A stretch of DNA of 41,985 nucleotides from Desulfosporosinus sp. Its GTDB lineage: Bacteria; Campylobacterota; Campylobacteria; Campylobacterales; Arcobacteraceae. Below, in pieces: positions 2,840 to 34,124 of the stretch. The stretch is from assembly GCA_020719775.1 (NCBI GenBank), contig DYPS01000009.1, positions 1,340 to 43,324 of the forward strand. Reading direction: 5' to 3'. Under the pieces are notes generated by a model. That model made no database searches and was not told the origin of the DNA. It saw only the letters and a program-made list of their open reading frames with translations. Within the stretch, counting starts at the first letter, position 1; the number at the start of each line of letters is the position of its first letter. Position numbers and translations under genes: made by a program.

Positions 2840-5262
2840 TCAAAGTTCTTTGAGAACTCCTCCTGCTCCAACTTCCACACTTGGATACTCTTATTGAATG
2901 ACAGGTCTATCGTTTTAAAATCCAGCATCCGCAGTTCTTTCCATATAAATTAAGTCCTTTTTATGCACGCTCTATCTGTTAGCAAAAATTAGATCACGGT
3001 AGCAACCTGATTTGTTAAGTTTCTAAATTAAATTAATTATACCTTGATCAAATTCTAAAGATTTTAAATAGACCAATAACCATTAACGAGTTCTTCAAAC
3101 ATAGGCATACAGTTGACTCTAAATGCTTCTCTTAAAATGGTTAGATGTTTTGATTTTGAAGGAGATGCACTGATAGCTTTTACTTTACTTCCAATACCAT
3201 AAATAGCAACAAAGTCCCACTATTCAATCGATCCAATCACAAGAATGCTGTCATAAAATTAGCGTGAACCAACATACAATAGTTTTTTATCAAAAAACTT
3301 ATAACTTTCAAAGGGAACATAAGAAAAAGGAATTCTCTGAATAAATAAGTAATTACCAATGCTAACATGTTTAGACCGACATTGAAACCTTGCTCATAAG
3401 CGATTGTTGGGCTATTGCTGACTAATCTTTTATTCAGCAAAAAATATTCATTTGCTGAACTAAGTCCAGCAGAGAAAATACGAATATTATCAGTTCTACC
3501 AAAAGTATCTCCGCTTAATCTTTCTTCATGGAAGAAATCAAAATCAGTATATTTTCCATTTTTTACCCATTCCTAAATTTTAAAAGATTTACTGTATTTC
3601 CTGCAAAATGATGAGGGAAGATGACAACGCCATCAGCTTTCAATCTAAGTTAGTCAGACAACCGCACAGTCACTGATTATCCATACTTAAGTTTAGGATT
3701 TTCAACTATTTTTGATTTTTTCTTATTTCTTTCTTTAATTTCTTCAATTTCTCTTTTCTTAATGTTTTTGTAACTAAATTTATTTGAGAACATTAGATCC
3801 TCTTTGATTTTAATGAAAAATTAAATTCCCCTATCAGTATATTATTTTACTATTTTTTTTTCAATTTCTGGGCCAAATACTTCTGACACAGCTGAGTCAC
3901 GTTATCCATCAATAACTTTAATATTAATATCTGGAAATTAAGTTTTTAGTTCTTTAATAAACTCTAAACTTTATACATTATGTCCCAAAATTAGCAAACT
4001 TTTAATAACATTTTTGTTTAAGAAGCAAGCTAGTTTTTAATGCTGTTATTTTGATCTAAGAGGACAGAATACATTTTAAGCCAGATTAACATCTGTTTAT
4101 TTTTAGTTATTAACAGTTATTGATTCATAAATTGGAACCTTTTGAGTGAGACCAGTCGCAACCATCAAAGCGTCAAATTAAATTTTGGTTCCATCGTTGC
4201 AAGTTACATAAGGATAATATTGCTGTGTTATAAATTATTTACTTTATTAATGATTCTAAATGATTAATTATTGAAAACAAAGTCAATACCATAGTACTAG
4301 TACCAATCATCACGATAGAAGGAAAGTTTGTTGTATATCTTTTCCTAAAGTTGTTCTTTAATGTAATTTTACATTTATTTCTACGATATAACCAAAGAAG
4401 AGTCTTTATCTTTTTTCTTTTTTTCGGCATTTTTTAATTTCAGCTCCTCTTTAATTTTTTTTTAAAGCTCATTATCCTTTTAGTTTAAGTGCAAATTTAT
4501 GAGTTTTTTATGAAGATAATCTTTTTTATATGGATAATGGAATTATCCTTCCTTCATCACTGTTATTTCACCTTGATATCCGAATTGACGAAGACTGTTT
4601 ATACAACCGATAGTTGCATAGTCGTCTCCTCCAAGAATTAAAGTTTTTCTTAAATCCTATACATCTCTTTCAGCGAAGTTTGGGGCAATTGAGGTTGGAA
4701 TTGCCAAAGGATAAATGACTGAAACTATACCCTACTTTTCTTCGGCGAAAAAGATTGGCAAGTTCAAAAGGGCTGGACCATTTTCAATGCTGCCTGATTT
4801 AATATCAAATATGCAGCCATGATGTGGGCAAAATAGTTTATCGTTGAAGCAAACTCCTTCTTAGAGAGAGTAAGAGATGTCATCAGAATCGAAAGGCTCT
4901 TTATGCGGGCAATTAGCTGAGAAAGCATAAAGTTTATTATTAGATCGAATTACCATAATGGTGCGTTCTTTGCCTTCATGATCCTTGACAGTGATGACCT
5001 TTCTCTGCCCTTCTGGTAATTCCTTACCTTCACAGACATCAACCTTTTGCAGTTTCTTGATATATTATTCAAGATTTTAACCGATATCATCTTAAGGTTT
5101 ACCTGTCGGATTGGCTTTGTTATCTTCGTTGATATTGTTTGGAGATGAGTCAAGTAGATAGGGGTTTTTGAGCAGTGAATAGGCTAGAATAGCTGTGGTG
5201 GTAAGTATTTTCCTGGTGGAGAAAAGTCTCTTCCAAAGGGGGCGTACAAAGCGTGAGAACAT
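2840..5262 (-). CDS. AIFM3-like Rieske / pyridine-nucleotide-disulfide oxidoreductase, 780 aa
   Basis: Four 20-nt introns (4223-4242, 3573-3592, 3337-3356, 3023-3042) give a continuous 780-aa protein ending at TGA 2840-2842. The N-terminus is basic and then hydrophobic (residues 1-35), like a mitochondrial presequence with a membrane anchor. A Rieske [2Fe-2S] domain follows, with CPH (118-120) and CPHHGC (145-150). The rest has the order of an AIFM3-type flavoprotein: LILGGDD (208-214), LMVATGL (359-365), LLILGH (416-421), ADGVVIF and IFSAGL (582-587). Known role of the family: a mitochondrial Rieske/FAD oxidoreductase. Odd points: the GxGxxG of both Rossmann folds is missing and the usual FAD-binding Asp near the C-terminus is Leu. 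A charged Lys/Glu insert occupies about 250-320. The C-terminal part is longer than usual. Confidence 0.85.
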
Positions 5263-9792: not shown

Positions 9793-10460
9793 ATGTCCAA
9801 ATTCAATGTGAAATTCAGCTATGCTGGACAACCTGCTGCTAATGTATATGAGTTGCTATTTAGGTGCAAGAAATACATCGAGGACCCATTCATCTCAACA
9901 ACCTAGTTTAGACTTACTCAAACCCCAAATACGAATAAATCAATCTTCCAAATGTAGAACATCACCCTGCATAAACTGTCATTCCGGTTGTTCCTACAGT
10001 TGATGTCGAATCTAAACCACAATCTCCTCAAATTATTAGGGCTAAATCGAAAGAACACTTACCTAAAGTTACCGTACATGTTCATTCATTCAGCCTTCTG
10101 AAATCAAAGAAAAATAAGTGGATAACCTTAAACCAATTTTAAACATTGAGGAAGTGAACGAGAGTTAATTTAAGAACGTAGAGAGCCATAAAAAAGAAGC
10201 CAATCACAAAATCTAAAACAGTGAGGAAATAGTTCTGGTAATACGTTATTTTAAAATAGAAAGCCCCCAGCTTCAAATTCTAGCCAAAGAAGGAAGGCGA
10301 TATTAGTAGAGTTACTAAGAAAGAATATGTGAGAGCAGAAAATGCTTAAAAATATTTGTACAGCGGCATTCCTTAAAAAAGTTAGGACGAGTTTGTTGGC
10401 TGTTTTGGATGTATGCGTAAGAAACCCAAATCATACAGCATCTAAAAAGCCCATAAATGA
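9793..10460 (+). CDS. Unknown 201-aa protein
   Basis: Three introns (9844-9863 and 10074-10093 of 20 nt; 10238-10259 of 22 nt) produce a 201-aa frame ending at TGA 10458-10460. Without splicing the frame breaks at each of them, and every break is cured by a GT...AG intron of the local length. The protein is hydrophilic and proline-containing in the middle (TVIPVVPTVDVESKPQSP). It ends with a small Cys-containing basic motif (FVGCFGCMRKKPKSY). No known family recognised. Followed 180 bp later by the ABHD gene on the same strand. Confidence 0.7.
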
Positions 10461-10640: not shown

Positions 10641-11885
10641 ATGAAGGCGATTAATGGTTTCTTAAATCTTTTTCATAGAAAGCAGCGCTTCAGTCCATAA
10701 TACTAAACTTTAAGTTGGCTTAAAAAAGTCATGTTTTTTGGAGCCGGAGGATTCATGATTTCTCTGTCTATCTCAAAATTTATCCAGTCAAGTCTAATTT
10801 ATGCTTTCGAACCCACATAATAAAACAAACTGCTTATCAAACTTAATCCAGCCCTTGACAGAGTACTCATTTAAGTAAGCAGAGTGTATATCAACCCACC
10901 ATTCTGATGATATTCGGAATTTTTCAGCGAATGTATGCTAAATACAGATAGTAAGAGCCATATCTAAGAATAGAATAATAATAATTCGATGAGTAAACGT
11001 TGCATTGGGTGACTCTTCACGATAAAGCTACACATAATGTCAAATCAAATAAAAAAAATTAAATACCTGTTGTAGTAGTATTTGCTGGTAGCTAAGGATT
11101 GGATAATACAGCTAAACATCTCATGTTGGCAGCCTATACTTTAGGATATAGAACTGTAGCAATTGATCCCAAAGATTTTTATGATCAATAAAAAATTCAT
11201 AGGATTATGGTTCATATTCAGAAACAATATCCTTTGTCAAAAATAATGGGAATTGGAATATAGTATGGTGCCAATCTCTTAATCAACTATGCTGCCAATC
11301 ATCCAAAGCAACTAACAGCATTAATTTCGATTGGTAATCCTTTTGATTTATTTAAAAGTGAAGCCAATCTGCAAAATTCATGGTTTTGGAGAGAATTGTA
11401 CAATAGCATGCTGAAGGGGAAAATTTAAAAAGGAAAGAAGATCAATAAAAAATTAGATTAGAAAAACATTAGTTCGTTATTTGAACTTGACAAATTTGTC
11501 TATAACATAGATGATGACAAGTATCTCTAATGGAAAATAAAAAATTCCTGCATAAATTCAATTTCTAAGCTATAACAACCAACTCTATTTTTACAATCCA
11601 AGGAAGATCCCTTTACTCAGTACCAAATGATTTATACAGACCAATAGAGAATGATGACAGATTTTAGAATTAAAAATGTATATATGTTACTACTCAACGT
11701 GGAGGCCATAATTAATGGTTTTAAAATATATGGATGAATAGGGTATTTTATACTATATTTAGTGGCTGATAAGTCCAGTTAAATATTTTTTGAAACTTAA
11801 TTGTGAGGAAAGGGTCAAAAAAATTCAAGAGTCAGAGAAAAAGAGAGTTCAAGATGAGTTGACCACAAAACGTGCAACAGTATGA
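10641..11885 (+). CDS. ABHD1/2/3-type alpha/beta-hydrolase fold protein lacking the nucleophile serine
   Basis: Three 20-nt introns (10863-10882, 11620-11639, 11743-11762) give 394 aa ending at TGA 11883-11885. A hydrophobic anchor lies at about residues 31-50 (VMFFGAGGFMISLSISKFI), as in membrane-anchored ABHD1/3 proteins. Family landmarks follow: YQPTILMIFGIFQRM in the place of the N-terminal lid, PVVVVFAGSQGLDN for the oxyanion strand, IGNPFDLFKSE after the elbow, SKEDPF for the acid Asp and RGGHN for the catalytic His. The nucleophile elbow, normally GxSxG, reads GIQYGAN: the serine position (residue 201) is a TAG codon at 11261-11263, read Gln. Asp and His are kept. It is therefore probably a pseudoenzyme or uses another chemistry. 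Confidence 0.8.
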
Positions 11886-17723: not shown

Positions 17724-20228
17724 TCATTTAACAATCACAATTGCACTCTTTAAACTTTCAATAAAGTTATTGAATGTGCATTAGAAAAAGTCCTATCTTA
17801 GCAAGGTTGTCAGCAGCTAACTGTAGGGGCCTTTTTTGTGGAAGGTACGAATTAGTAATGGTTGATACATTCCTCCGTTTAGACTACTTCTTCGACGAAG
17901 TTAAGCTATTATATTTGCTACTCTGATGCTATGAGAAGTTTATAGTTCAGGTAATCCTCCCAATTCGATATCTTATAAGTTAGTGCAGTCAAATAGATCA
18001 TTCAATAGTTCATCTGACGCTTGACTTTGAACCAAAATATTTATTTGATCTCCAGAGTCGTATAGATAAATTCCATTATCATCAATTGATTGCTTTGTGA
18101 GTGCCAAATTGCGTGGAAGAACTGAAATTTTAGGTGCATCTTCAGATTAGTCTTAGTTTTATAAAAAATCTCCTGGAAGAATATCGCCTTCATATATGTC
18201 ATGAGTGAGAGGATATAGTTTAGAATAATAGCGAGTTGCAAAAAAATAAGGATTTGCTGAATTTATTTGAAGATATTAATTGATTCTATAGTCAGCACTC
18301 ACTTTGATGTAGTTAAGGAAAAGTCGACTATTTAGAATTGTGTGAATGTAAGACAATGCCCATGTAAGATTAGCAGGAAGGGAAAGATCATTAACTTTAC
18401 CCATTCGACCAGTAGGACATTTTGATCTGAACTATCCAATCATTGTGCCAAGCCAAGCAATAGCCTATTCTCTGATTTTAGCTGGTTAAAATTTAAGCAA
18501 TTTGGAAGTATGAGTTCTAACAAATATCTATATAATCGTAATCGTACATTGGCGAAGGTCAAATAATCGAGTGAATCATAAACAGGTTCCATCCTTGAAC
18601 TTACTTAAAATTTATAAGTAATAACTCTGATTCTTCGTTCTCCATGAGCGGTAGTATACATTATTGCAAATTGAATGAACGCTCCTAAATTATCCTACAA
18701 TCTGTTTTAATTTAAAATTACTTTTCTTATTGCTACAACTCAACTGTAAAGGAACTAGTTGAATCAACAACTGATAACCCTACATCTCTAGTTTCTCTGA
18801 GACCATCAGGAGCACCATAGCGTAGTACTGACAGTCCATTAGAAGCTCTACATGCAAAATCAGCGTCATAGTGGCAAACTTTGGTTATTGAATGAAAAAT
18901 GCTATAGTAAAGATGTTAACCGTGTCTAGATAATGATTAAAATACATATCGCTGTTGAAAGTAGAGTAAAGATGAAGTCCACCGCCTGTATTGGAGGAAA
19001 GAAAATGGGTAGTTGCTAATTAGTGACTTACTAAATTATCTTTGCTGAAGTAAAAATGTTAAATGCCTATTCTACTTTTTACAAATTATCTGGCTAAATC
19101 GTATATACCATTATGAAGTGGGCGTAAAGGTAATTTAGATTATTATTAGTTTCTCAGCCTTATAGAGCAAGATCCTGTGCGTGGGTCAAGGAAAGAAAAT
19201 AACAGAATTCTACCTGTTTATTGTTCAAATAGCTATTTTACACATTTCAAAGCATTAATGTAATTTGCACTATGGGTAAATTTGCTCTGTTTCCATGCAC
19301 TATCCGCATATTTTTGGAGAAAATCTAGCATTCCAGTTAATTGATCGCGGCTATTATTTGGATCAACTAAAAATTATTCATCGCTAAGAGGGCAACAAAA
19401 CATATTATCTTTGTTATTAGGAACCATAAAAATAATTGGTTACGAATTTTCATTGATGGGAGGTCTAATAAACCCGACCCCATTATCGCTGTAAAATACA
19501 ATACCAACTCTTACTTTATCTTCGAATTAATGACTTTGAAATACGCTTTTTAAACTATTGATAATACTTCCAAATATTCCCAATTCTATTATTGGCATAC
19601 TTAGTTCGATGACTGCGATCATTTTGATGATATCTGTACGCTTTTTGTAATAGAATTTATCAGCTACTTTGAAATCTAAAATGCATTGAGTTGCGATATC
19701 AGTGCTTTGCAAATTGGTTTTATCGAGGTTTTCGTCAATTGCAAATCTTAATCCACACATGTTGCAGGTTGCAGAGCGTCTAGTCCCATCAAATTGGAAA
19801 TAAGGATTTACATAAGCTTTACATCTTGTGCATCTAAGAGGGGAATTAAGATCAACAACATGAACTTGCTAGTTCGCGAAGGGAGTTATCCAGGCTCCAA
19901 TCGGCAAAATTGTTTTACGAGGTTGACTATGAAGAACTATATTGGTGGTTCTAATGAAGCAAGGATCAACTTCGGAATCTTTGATTATGTAGAGACTTTC
20001 AGGAGGAGGTAAGGAATGTTAATTTTTTCTAAAAGTGTTGCGATCGTATGACTTGTAAGTGTTTGTTGGTTCGAAGATGGGTCTATAATTTTGATTGATG
20101 CTGAAGTTATTTGATTGAGGAGAAGTTGCTCCTGAATTTTGAGAATGCTGAGTTTCTTGAGTTTGTTCAGCTTGCGTCTCAGTGGTATCAACTCTTCGTT
20201 TTTGCAGGTGATGCAATCTATGAGCCAT
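17724..20228 (-). CDS. SEC24: Sec24, COPII coat cargo-binding subunit, 814 aa
   Basis: Three 20-nt introns (18926-18945, 18702-18721, 18528-18547) give 814 aa from ATG 20226-20228 to TGA 17724-17726. A Gln/Asn/Ser-rich N-terminus of about 110 residues is followed by the zinc finger CTRCKAY...CNMCGL (about 148-169). The trunk follows, with LLFSFLDPRTGS and the SSNTGGGLHLY motif, then the CRASNGLSVLRYGA beta-sandwich region, GERRIRV, a helical domain and a C-terminal gelsolin-like domain (NGIYLYDSGDQINILV). This is the full Sec24 order at normal size. Sec24 pairs with Sec23 and selects cargo for ER-to-Golgi vesicles; p24 and SNARE genes nearby serve the same route. Residue numbers are approximate. 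Confidence 0.92.
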
Positions 20229-29197: not shown

Positions 29198-29198
29198 C

Positions 29199-29268
29199 AT
29201 CCCAACCAGGACTCGAACCTGGATCTAAAGTGCCGGAAACTTTCATGCTACCCTTATACCATTGGGAT
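29199..29268 (-). tRNA. tRNA-Arg, anticodon CCG
   Basis: The minus strand folds as a 70-nt intronless tRNA. The acceptor stem ATCCCAA pairs with TTGGGAT. The D-arm region is TGGTATAAGGGTAGC, a good A box. The anticodon stem AAAGT/ACTTT encloses a seven-base loop TTCCGGC, with CCG at positions 34-36. The T-arm CCAGG-TTCGAGT-CCTGG contains a perfect B box. CCG reads CGG, an Arg codon. It lies between a gene-poor stretch and the divergent Rpn10 gene, 83 bp away. The identity follows from the anticodon only; the D-stem is weak. Confidence 0.8.
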
Positions 29269-32259: not shown

Positions 32260-34124
32260 TCAACTTTTTCTTTTTTGCAATTATTATAGAAGCTATCTTT
32301 ACCTATTTTGAAGTCTTTCTATTTATTTTTGAATTTGTTAGTTCTACATTTTAGTAATATTAGTATTCCCTGAGGTTTTTGTATTTTGCTAATATCCTAA
32401 TTCTCGTTTCTATTGCTATATTTATCTTAATTTTTTTTTTAAATCGGTATTTTATCCTAAAAGACTGCTCGTGACTATTTAATCTTATCCATTCCCATCT
32501 TTTTTTTTATTAAGAAATATTTGTTCCAAATTTTATAGTTTATTCTGAATGGAATTATTAGTCTCCATTAATTTTTTATAATTATCTTCTGACTAATCTT
32601 TTTGCCTTCTCATCAGTTAATTTTATTTTTTAATTTGCTAAAATTTCAATTGATATTAAGAAATAACTCCATCCGTCGATGTATTTTTGCCAAAGTTTAA
32701 TGTTCCTTTTTTAGAATATTCCCCTTTAGCTGAATATTGCTGCTACTTTTACAAAGGAGGCAGCATTGAACTATGGCTGAATTATAATTTCCCAGTTTTT
32801 ATCATATCTTGTTTACTTAACTATGGTATTTTAATGGGCAATCCTTTATTTAGTCGCTGATATTGCTCTCTTAGATATAAATTTTATCTTTTAAGCTCTT
32901 CTATTTAAGTTTGAATTTATTGAATAGCTTGATCCTTTTGATCCATTTGAACCATTGGCTTGTTTCGAATATTCATTGTTCTTGCAGCATAATTTAAAGT
33001 TGACAAAGTTTAATCATAGTAAAGTGCTGATGGACTGGCACAAGCGATCATTAATGCTTTTGAATTTCCTCTATATTATTTATATAAATACCCTAAAGAA
33101 TCCATAAGCAACATCGTAAGTTTTGAGTCTCTGTATGGGATATATGGAGTTTTTGATTTTTTATCAGTTAGTCCTTTTATTACTTTTCCCAATGTGAAAA
33201 GAGATTTATTTATACTGCCTGTTTATTTTATCATGTCACCTTGAGACTTAGATTATTTAAGTCTTTCACTTCCAGCTAAATCAACAAAACTCATTTTTCC
33301 ATATTTCTTAACATTTTGATTGCCTTGTTTTAATTCACTAATTATATACATAGTCATAATTGAGTGACTTCTACTCGAGTCTTTGTTCATTTAATGAGAC
33401 CCACTTTTACGATTACGCATCCCCTACAAAAGAACTGAAATCATGTCATCAACATTACTACAATCAACAACAATTAAATCTTAAACAAAAAAGCCATTTG
33501 TTGGATTCCACCTACAATGCAATACGCCAGAAGATAAATTGAGTAAATCCTTAATCTGTTAGTTGTAGATTTAGGTAAAACTTGCTTTAATTAGATAATT
33601 ATTTTTTCTTTATTTAATTTTTTTCCATAATTATTGTATTGCTCGAGGGATAATACCTTCTCTTTCATCTTGCTTATAAACTTATCGAGCAAATATTTAA
33701 TCTTTTCCTGCCATTGTATATGTTTTTCCTGAGCCTGTCTGTCCATAGGCGAATACTGTTGCACTATAACCATCGATCGCAGCATCAATAAGTTATGAAA
33801 CATTACATTCATGATAGCAATTAGATTGATTATCGTTTGGATTTAGGACATAATTGAATTGATAACTTTTAGAAGACCCTCTTTATTATGTAAATATTAC
33901 TTTTGAGTAATGCTAAGAGTGTTCGGATTTTATGCGTTGAGACAGGTGTTATCATTACGTGATTGTTCACTCTCGTTCATTGGTCGTATTCTTACTGCTA
34001 CTTTGACATTTTAGCTTTTATCTGATGGGGTATAAAACTAATTCTATTGCTATGTGCCAGTCTCTTCTTATTTTTTGCTTTCTCCTTCAGTCTTCTTTAG
34101 AGAATTAGATTTATTTTTTGCCAT
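32260..34124 (-). CDS. Kinesin motor protein, 607 aa
   Basis: Introns at 33881-33900 (20 nt) and 33071-33091 (21 nt) give 607 aa from ATG 34122-34124 to TGA 32260-32262. An N-terminal motor domain has [14 protein letters not shown], the P-loop [16 protein letters not shown], switch [11 protein letters not shown], switch [13 protein letters not shown], and [19 protein letters not shown] neck ([15 protein letters not shown]) and a Gln-rich coiled-coil stalk follow. It is an N-kinesin by layout; the stalk is short and has no tail domain I recognise, so the subfamily is open. Divergent from Myb protein 2 across 245 bp. Confidence 0.92.

Follow-up and report, generated by a model that had tools for sequence, protein, structure and literature searches.

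The question raised by this locus is how a protein with the motifs of an alpha/beta hydrolase can carry a TAG codon (11261-11263, + strand) exactly where its relatives carry the nucleophile serine. A preliminary description of the DNA offered three options, namely a pseudoenzyme, a TAG that is decoded differently at this one site, or a sequence variant. The window (the whole stretch analysed, 41,985 nucleotides) is part of contig C5 (44,704 bases) of a 2.85 Mb assembly in 228 contigs. This assembly is listed as a prokaryote genome with a completeness of 100 and a contamination of 0.32. We found that the longest listed reading frame in the window reached 146 amino acids with the bacterial code versus 810 amino acids if TAA and TAG were read as sense codons, and domain searches revealed eukaryotic genes, coding for a kinesin and Sec24 in the window and, on a sister contig, for an adaptin. 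The DNA of the window therefore comes from a ciliate, in an assembly catalogued as bacterial. Seven further contigs (C2, C8, C77, C103, C171, C192, and C203) also appeared ciliate-like, with frames that are long only when TAA and TAG are sense codons and with inferred introns mostly of 20 nt.

Our initial assumption was that TAG encodes glutamine (code 6). The meaning of the codon was read from conserved stretches of five proteins, GlnRS, beta-adaptin, KIF9, kinesin, and Sec24, in which TAA and TAG were masked as X and the aligned residue was taken by eye from the first-listed solved structure of each search. The 15 aligned TAG codons (one adaptin and one kinesin TAG fell outside the aligned stretches and were left out) faced glutamate seven times, aspartate twice, glutamine once, serine once, and other residues four times (GlnRS: Glu, Glu, Ser, Pro; beta-adaptin: Glu at four codons, Asp at two, Gln at one; KIF9: Glu; kinesin: Arg; Sec24: Leu, Lys). 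Codons of the TAA type aligned with glutamate at 8 of 12 positions in adaptin and at a smaller share in GlnRS, and in the kinesin (frame at 32260-33951, - strand) they occupied the glutamate positions of EIYNE and of the K-E preceding INxSL (five printed alignments of three distinct proteins). The glutamates in the kinesin, GlnRS, adaptin, and KIF9 alignments led us to abandon code 6. Judged from these alignments, TAA and TAG encode glutamate in the source organism, not glutamine. Codon usage in nine long frames gave 294 GAA, 112 GAG, 295 TAA, and 95 TAG, so that TAG makes up 95 of the 796 glutamate codons counted. The same reading of TAA and TAG is that of the peritrich nuclear code (NCBI table 30), and an excerpt of PMC10553269 reports UAR as glutamate in the peritrichs Campanella and Carchesium; because of that report the source ciliate is probably a peritrich, a placement that we draw from the code alone.

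Among the tRNA genes, one with the anticodon CUA lies at positions 10651-10722 of contig C203 and was labelled Pyl by ARAGORN; it was identical at 44 of 73 columns to one tRNA-Glu and at 44 of 72 to one tRNA-Gln, with similar values for others (tRNA-Gly: 46 of 75). The window itself holds a tRNA-Arg with the anticodon CCG (29198-29268, - strand). Two identical 85-nt tRNA-like genes were seen on contigs C29 and C31 (1501-1585 of excerpts L032 and L033, respectively), for which ARAGORN gave an incomplete anticodon, perhaps owing to a small intron.

Since TAG is an ordinary sense codon here, no special decoding is required at 11261-11263, and the elbow motif reads GIEYGAN, with TAG in frame as Glu201, rather than the GIQYGAN of the preliminary description, which had taken the codon as glutamine. 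Glutamate and glutamine differ in mass by 0.984 Da, and the peptide concerned here is IMGIGIEYGANLLINYAANHPK. The suggestion that TAG might be decoded differently at this one site finds no support, TAG being read as glutamate across conserved genes. A related reading, to which we assign almost no probability, is that the triplet is the end of an intron and that the true residue is another one: inferred introns in this DNA do end mostly in TAG or CAG, but none of the five 20-nt GTA..YAG sites on the + strand between 10000 and 12000 (starting at 10074, 10863, 11072, 11620, and 11743) ends at 11263, and excision would remove the conserved strand before the elbow.

The TAG lies within a stretch of 292 codons that is open with TGA as the sole stop. 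We modelled the gene as a spliced frame of 394 amino acids (10641-11885, + strand; code 30 translation) from which three 20-nt introns are removed, and which contains 22 TAA or TAG codons, four of them TAG. Position 10641 is the first ATG of the frame downstream of a TGA; the gene finder favoured 10731. In this model exon 1 (10641-10862) is followed by intron 1 (10863-10882, GTA...CAG), whose removal restores the frame, and by exon 2 (10883-11619), which carries the elbow, the acid, and the modelled hydrolase core. Intron 2 (11620-11639, GTA...CAG) separates exon 2 from exon 3 (11640-11742), and intron 3 (11743-11762, GTA...TAG) precedes exon 4 (11763-11885), a C-terminal tail that ends in a TGA stop at 11883-11885. 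The preliminary description had both remaining members of the triad in place, which we found to be right for the acid, as Asp316 (GAT, 11606-11608, + strand) of KEDPF is in the same frame as the elbow. The histidine of RGGHN (His343, CAT, 11707-11709, + strand) lies in another frame of the DNA and joins the elbow only if intron 2 is spliced out.

To what extent such introns are a feature of this genome was apparent from the distances within GTA..TAG and GTA..CAG pairs, which in 183 kb of ciliate sequence peaked at 20 nt (109 and 75 pairs, respectively, vs. about 60 and about 45 at neighbouring lengths), and from a simple gene finder that allowed introns of 17-30 nt without preference, which placed 56 of its 68 inferred introns at 20 nt. 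For the hydrolase gene, the output of this flat-length run was one exon (10931-11737) with no introns. When the finder was given a preference for 20 nt, it called all three introns at a penalty of -2 and intron 1 alone at -3, while penalties of -4 and -5 gave no intron; at every penalty but -2 its gene stopped at 11737, in the exon 2 frame and without RGGHN. Because the full model appeared at one of four penalties, the ab initio finder alone is no proof of it. Homology backs the three-intron model: the match to the NF008218 profile grows from profile position 278 to 304, spanning GGH, after removal of intron 2, and the alignment with relatives is continuous. The gene is probably spliced in this way and presumably expressed. 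A frameshifted pseudogene with three frame breaks was also considered and dropped, as all three breaks are explicable by 20-nt introns. Elsewhere in the window, a Sec24-like gene (17724-20228, - strand; Pfam) has three 20-nt introns under the 20-nt preference; in the flat-length run it came out as two separate genes, of which one has a 28-nt intron. The kinesin frame contains an in-frame 21-nt GTA..TAG insert at DSLG/GNSK that is intron-like and one base above the usual 20. A gene at 2840-5262 (- strand) with four inferred 20-nt introns codes for a Rieske domain and, after it, a stretch that weakly matches a pyridine-nucleotide oxidoreductase (22.0 bits, under the cut-off), a layout that we take to be AIFM3-like.

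Relatives of the protein were retrieved by a contig search with an alignment (A1), which yielded at least 591 stretches and at least 198 relatives; the best 80, all with bacterial titles, were kept. Identity of the protein to relatives was 19-27%. The motifs HG(L)xG and DPF lie within the two retrieval patterns, one of which allowed H or A at column 142, with T, A, or E allowed at column 145; neither pattern includes the serine column 201. The residue at the Glu201 column was serine in all 80 of these bacterial relatives (the best 80 of at least 198) and in 7 of 7 relatives of alignment A1, so the earlier assignment of the TAG to the nucleophile serine position of an alpha/beta hydrolase holds. 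The His343 column was histidine in 80 of the same 80. Counts at columns 142, 143, 145, 146, and 316-318 are biased, because the retrieval patterns cover these columns, and have to be read in that light: Asp316 faced aspartate in 80 of 80 relatives, Glu145 (TAA, 11093-11095, + strand) faced glutamate in 60 of 80, and Ala142 (GCT, 11084-11086, + strand), which stands in the histidine column of HG(L)xG, faced histidine in 79 of 80 and a gap in the remaining one. The protein is also without the FRGCSG..RxYHSGDT and FDxxYTAP segments found in relatives; in pattern searches FRG-like, RxYHxGxT, and YTAP-like patterns were absent from it and present in 65, 47, and 32, respectively, of the best 80 of at least 198 relatives. 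Since the HG histidine and two segments are missing along with the serine, the loss of the serine looks old and not like a read error.

Next, we examined the family and the fold. The nearest family was YheT (NF008218, PRK10985), matched over residues 182-352 with an E-value of 3.3e-8 and a score of 33.2 bits, which lies well under the curated 267-bit cut-off, and the hydrolase locus was the sole match to this model in the assembly. Among Pfam models searched with the final sequence, Ndr (PF03096) alone passed its cut-off (24.0 vs. 23.3 bits; residues 179-224, 46 residues), and Abhydrolase_1 stayed below its own (22.8 vs. 25.8 bits). An AlphaFold2 model of exon 2 only, built with 53 relatives, reached a pLDDT of 83.4 and a pTM of 0.83. 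In this model Glu201 (model residue 127) is placed between a strand (121-126) and a helix (128-139), as expected of a nucleophile elbow, and Foldseek and VIA-align placed the model among alpha/beta hydrolases (best VIA Z 15.8; rmsd 3.4; 172 aligned residues); exon 2 is therefore predicted to have the alpha/beta hydrolase fold. Near the N terminus, the best 19-residue hydrophobic window (residues 30-48) has a mean hydropathy of 1.62, which is borderline for a membrane anchor. Searches for a close ciliate orthologue in 398 genomes from the order and 397 from the phylum (some genomes recur) found none; a contig search with the single protein gave 10 stretches that fit the pattern, none of which was confirmed as an orthologue, and a search of viral contigs for an orthologue likewise found none.

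What the protein shares with YheT-type hydrolases (NF008218) is the order of the motifs, the aspartate in (D/E)DPF, the histidine in GGH, the elbow G-x-x-x-G-A/G-N, and the fold; it differs from them in having glutamate for serine and alanine for the HG histidine, and in the two missing segments. We take ABHD1/2/3 and EMB8 to be eukaryotic members of this group. Taken together, we consider it likely that the locus codes for an intact YheT-type alpha/beta hydrolase relative, from a ciliate in which TAA and TAG are glutamate, that is non-catalytic and probably membrane-anchored. Of the three options in the preliminary description, the pseudoenzyme is the best supported by the sequence, because other features of the pocket are lost together with the serine; the loss of activity that it entails is, as for the membrane anchoring and the binding role proposed below, something that we infer. 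Speaking against inactivity, Asp316 and His343 are retained, which would not be required in a fully dead enzyme, and they may leave room for residual chemistry.

Several other explanations have to be set against this one. TCG to TAG is a single base change, and an assembly error or a polymorphism, with TCG as the true or alternative codon and an active enzyme as the product, would fit the retained aspartate and histidine. TCG is also in use in this DNA, with 37 of 525 serine codons in the nine long frames. Against such an event stand the alanine in place of the HG histidine and the absence of two segments, losses that are independent of the serine and lie in the same part of the protein. In addition, TCG is the second-rarest of the six serine codons counted, and a search of the assembly found no second copy of the locus; we regard this reading as unlikely. 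We consider it improbable that the locus is a recent pseudogene whose frame has stayed open by chance after selection ceased. The low identity to relatives and the lost conserved segments would be in keeping with such decay, as would the finder models, which omit exons 3 and 4 under most settings; against it, no in-frame TGA occurs before the stop in the 394 spliced codons (the 245 codons of exon 2 have none, compared with 4 and 9 in the other frames of this exon), the reading frame is joined up by three 20-nt GTA..YAG sites, and the aspartate and histidine motifs are kept.

The glutamate could also belong to a working enzyme, in which Glu201 at the elbow would act together with Asp316 and His343, either as the nucleophile or as a base. 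In haloalkane dehalogenases and epoxide hydrolases, entries of which were among the fold matches, the nucleophile at the elbow position is an aspartate, not a glutamate, and the retained Asp316 and His343 would suit a reaction of this kind. The residue here is glutamate, however, and the HG histidine and the nearby segments are lost, which makes a catalytic Glu201 highly improbable in our estimate. A literature search on this point led to PMC3097144, an excerpt of which describes glutamate in place of the acid aspartate and not in place of the nucleophile.

Returning to the non-catalytic reading, the catalytic serine would have become glutamate and the HG histidine alanine, two conserved segments would have been lost, and the aspartate and histidine would have remained. 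Because the serine, the HG histidine, and the nearby segments are gone, an acyl-enzyme route is unlikely, and the protein would most likely be unable to form an acyl-enzyme. Catalytically inactive relatives of enzymes are already known, and the NDR family is regarded as working through a hydrolase fold that has no activity. By analogy to that family, the protein may have a binding role at a membrane without catalysis, its target being either a partner protein or a lipid or acyl ligand. The likeness to the NDR family (NDRG1-4) extends to a nucleophile position that is not serine and to the elbow, which resembles that of NDRG2 (E-value 0.1). For NDRG3, an excerpt of PMC7022630 describes a fold that is kept and triad residues that are all substituted; in contrast to the protein described there, the ciliate protein retains Asp316 and His343.

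The analysis also bears on how this DNA is read, as an assembly catalogued as bacterial contains protein-coding DNA of a ciliate that would be misread if it were annotated with the standard code. Under the right code and with 20-nt introns, a reassigned codon at a catalytic residue is no longer a puzzle, and the protein that is left is probably an inactive one with a hydrolase fold.
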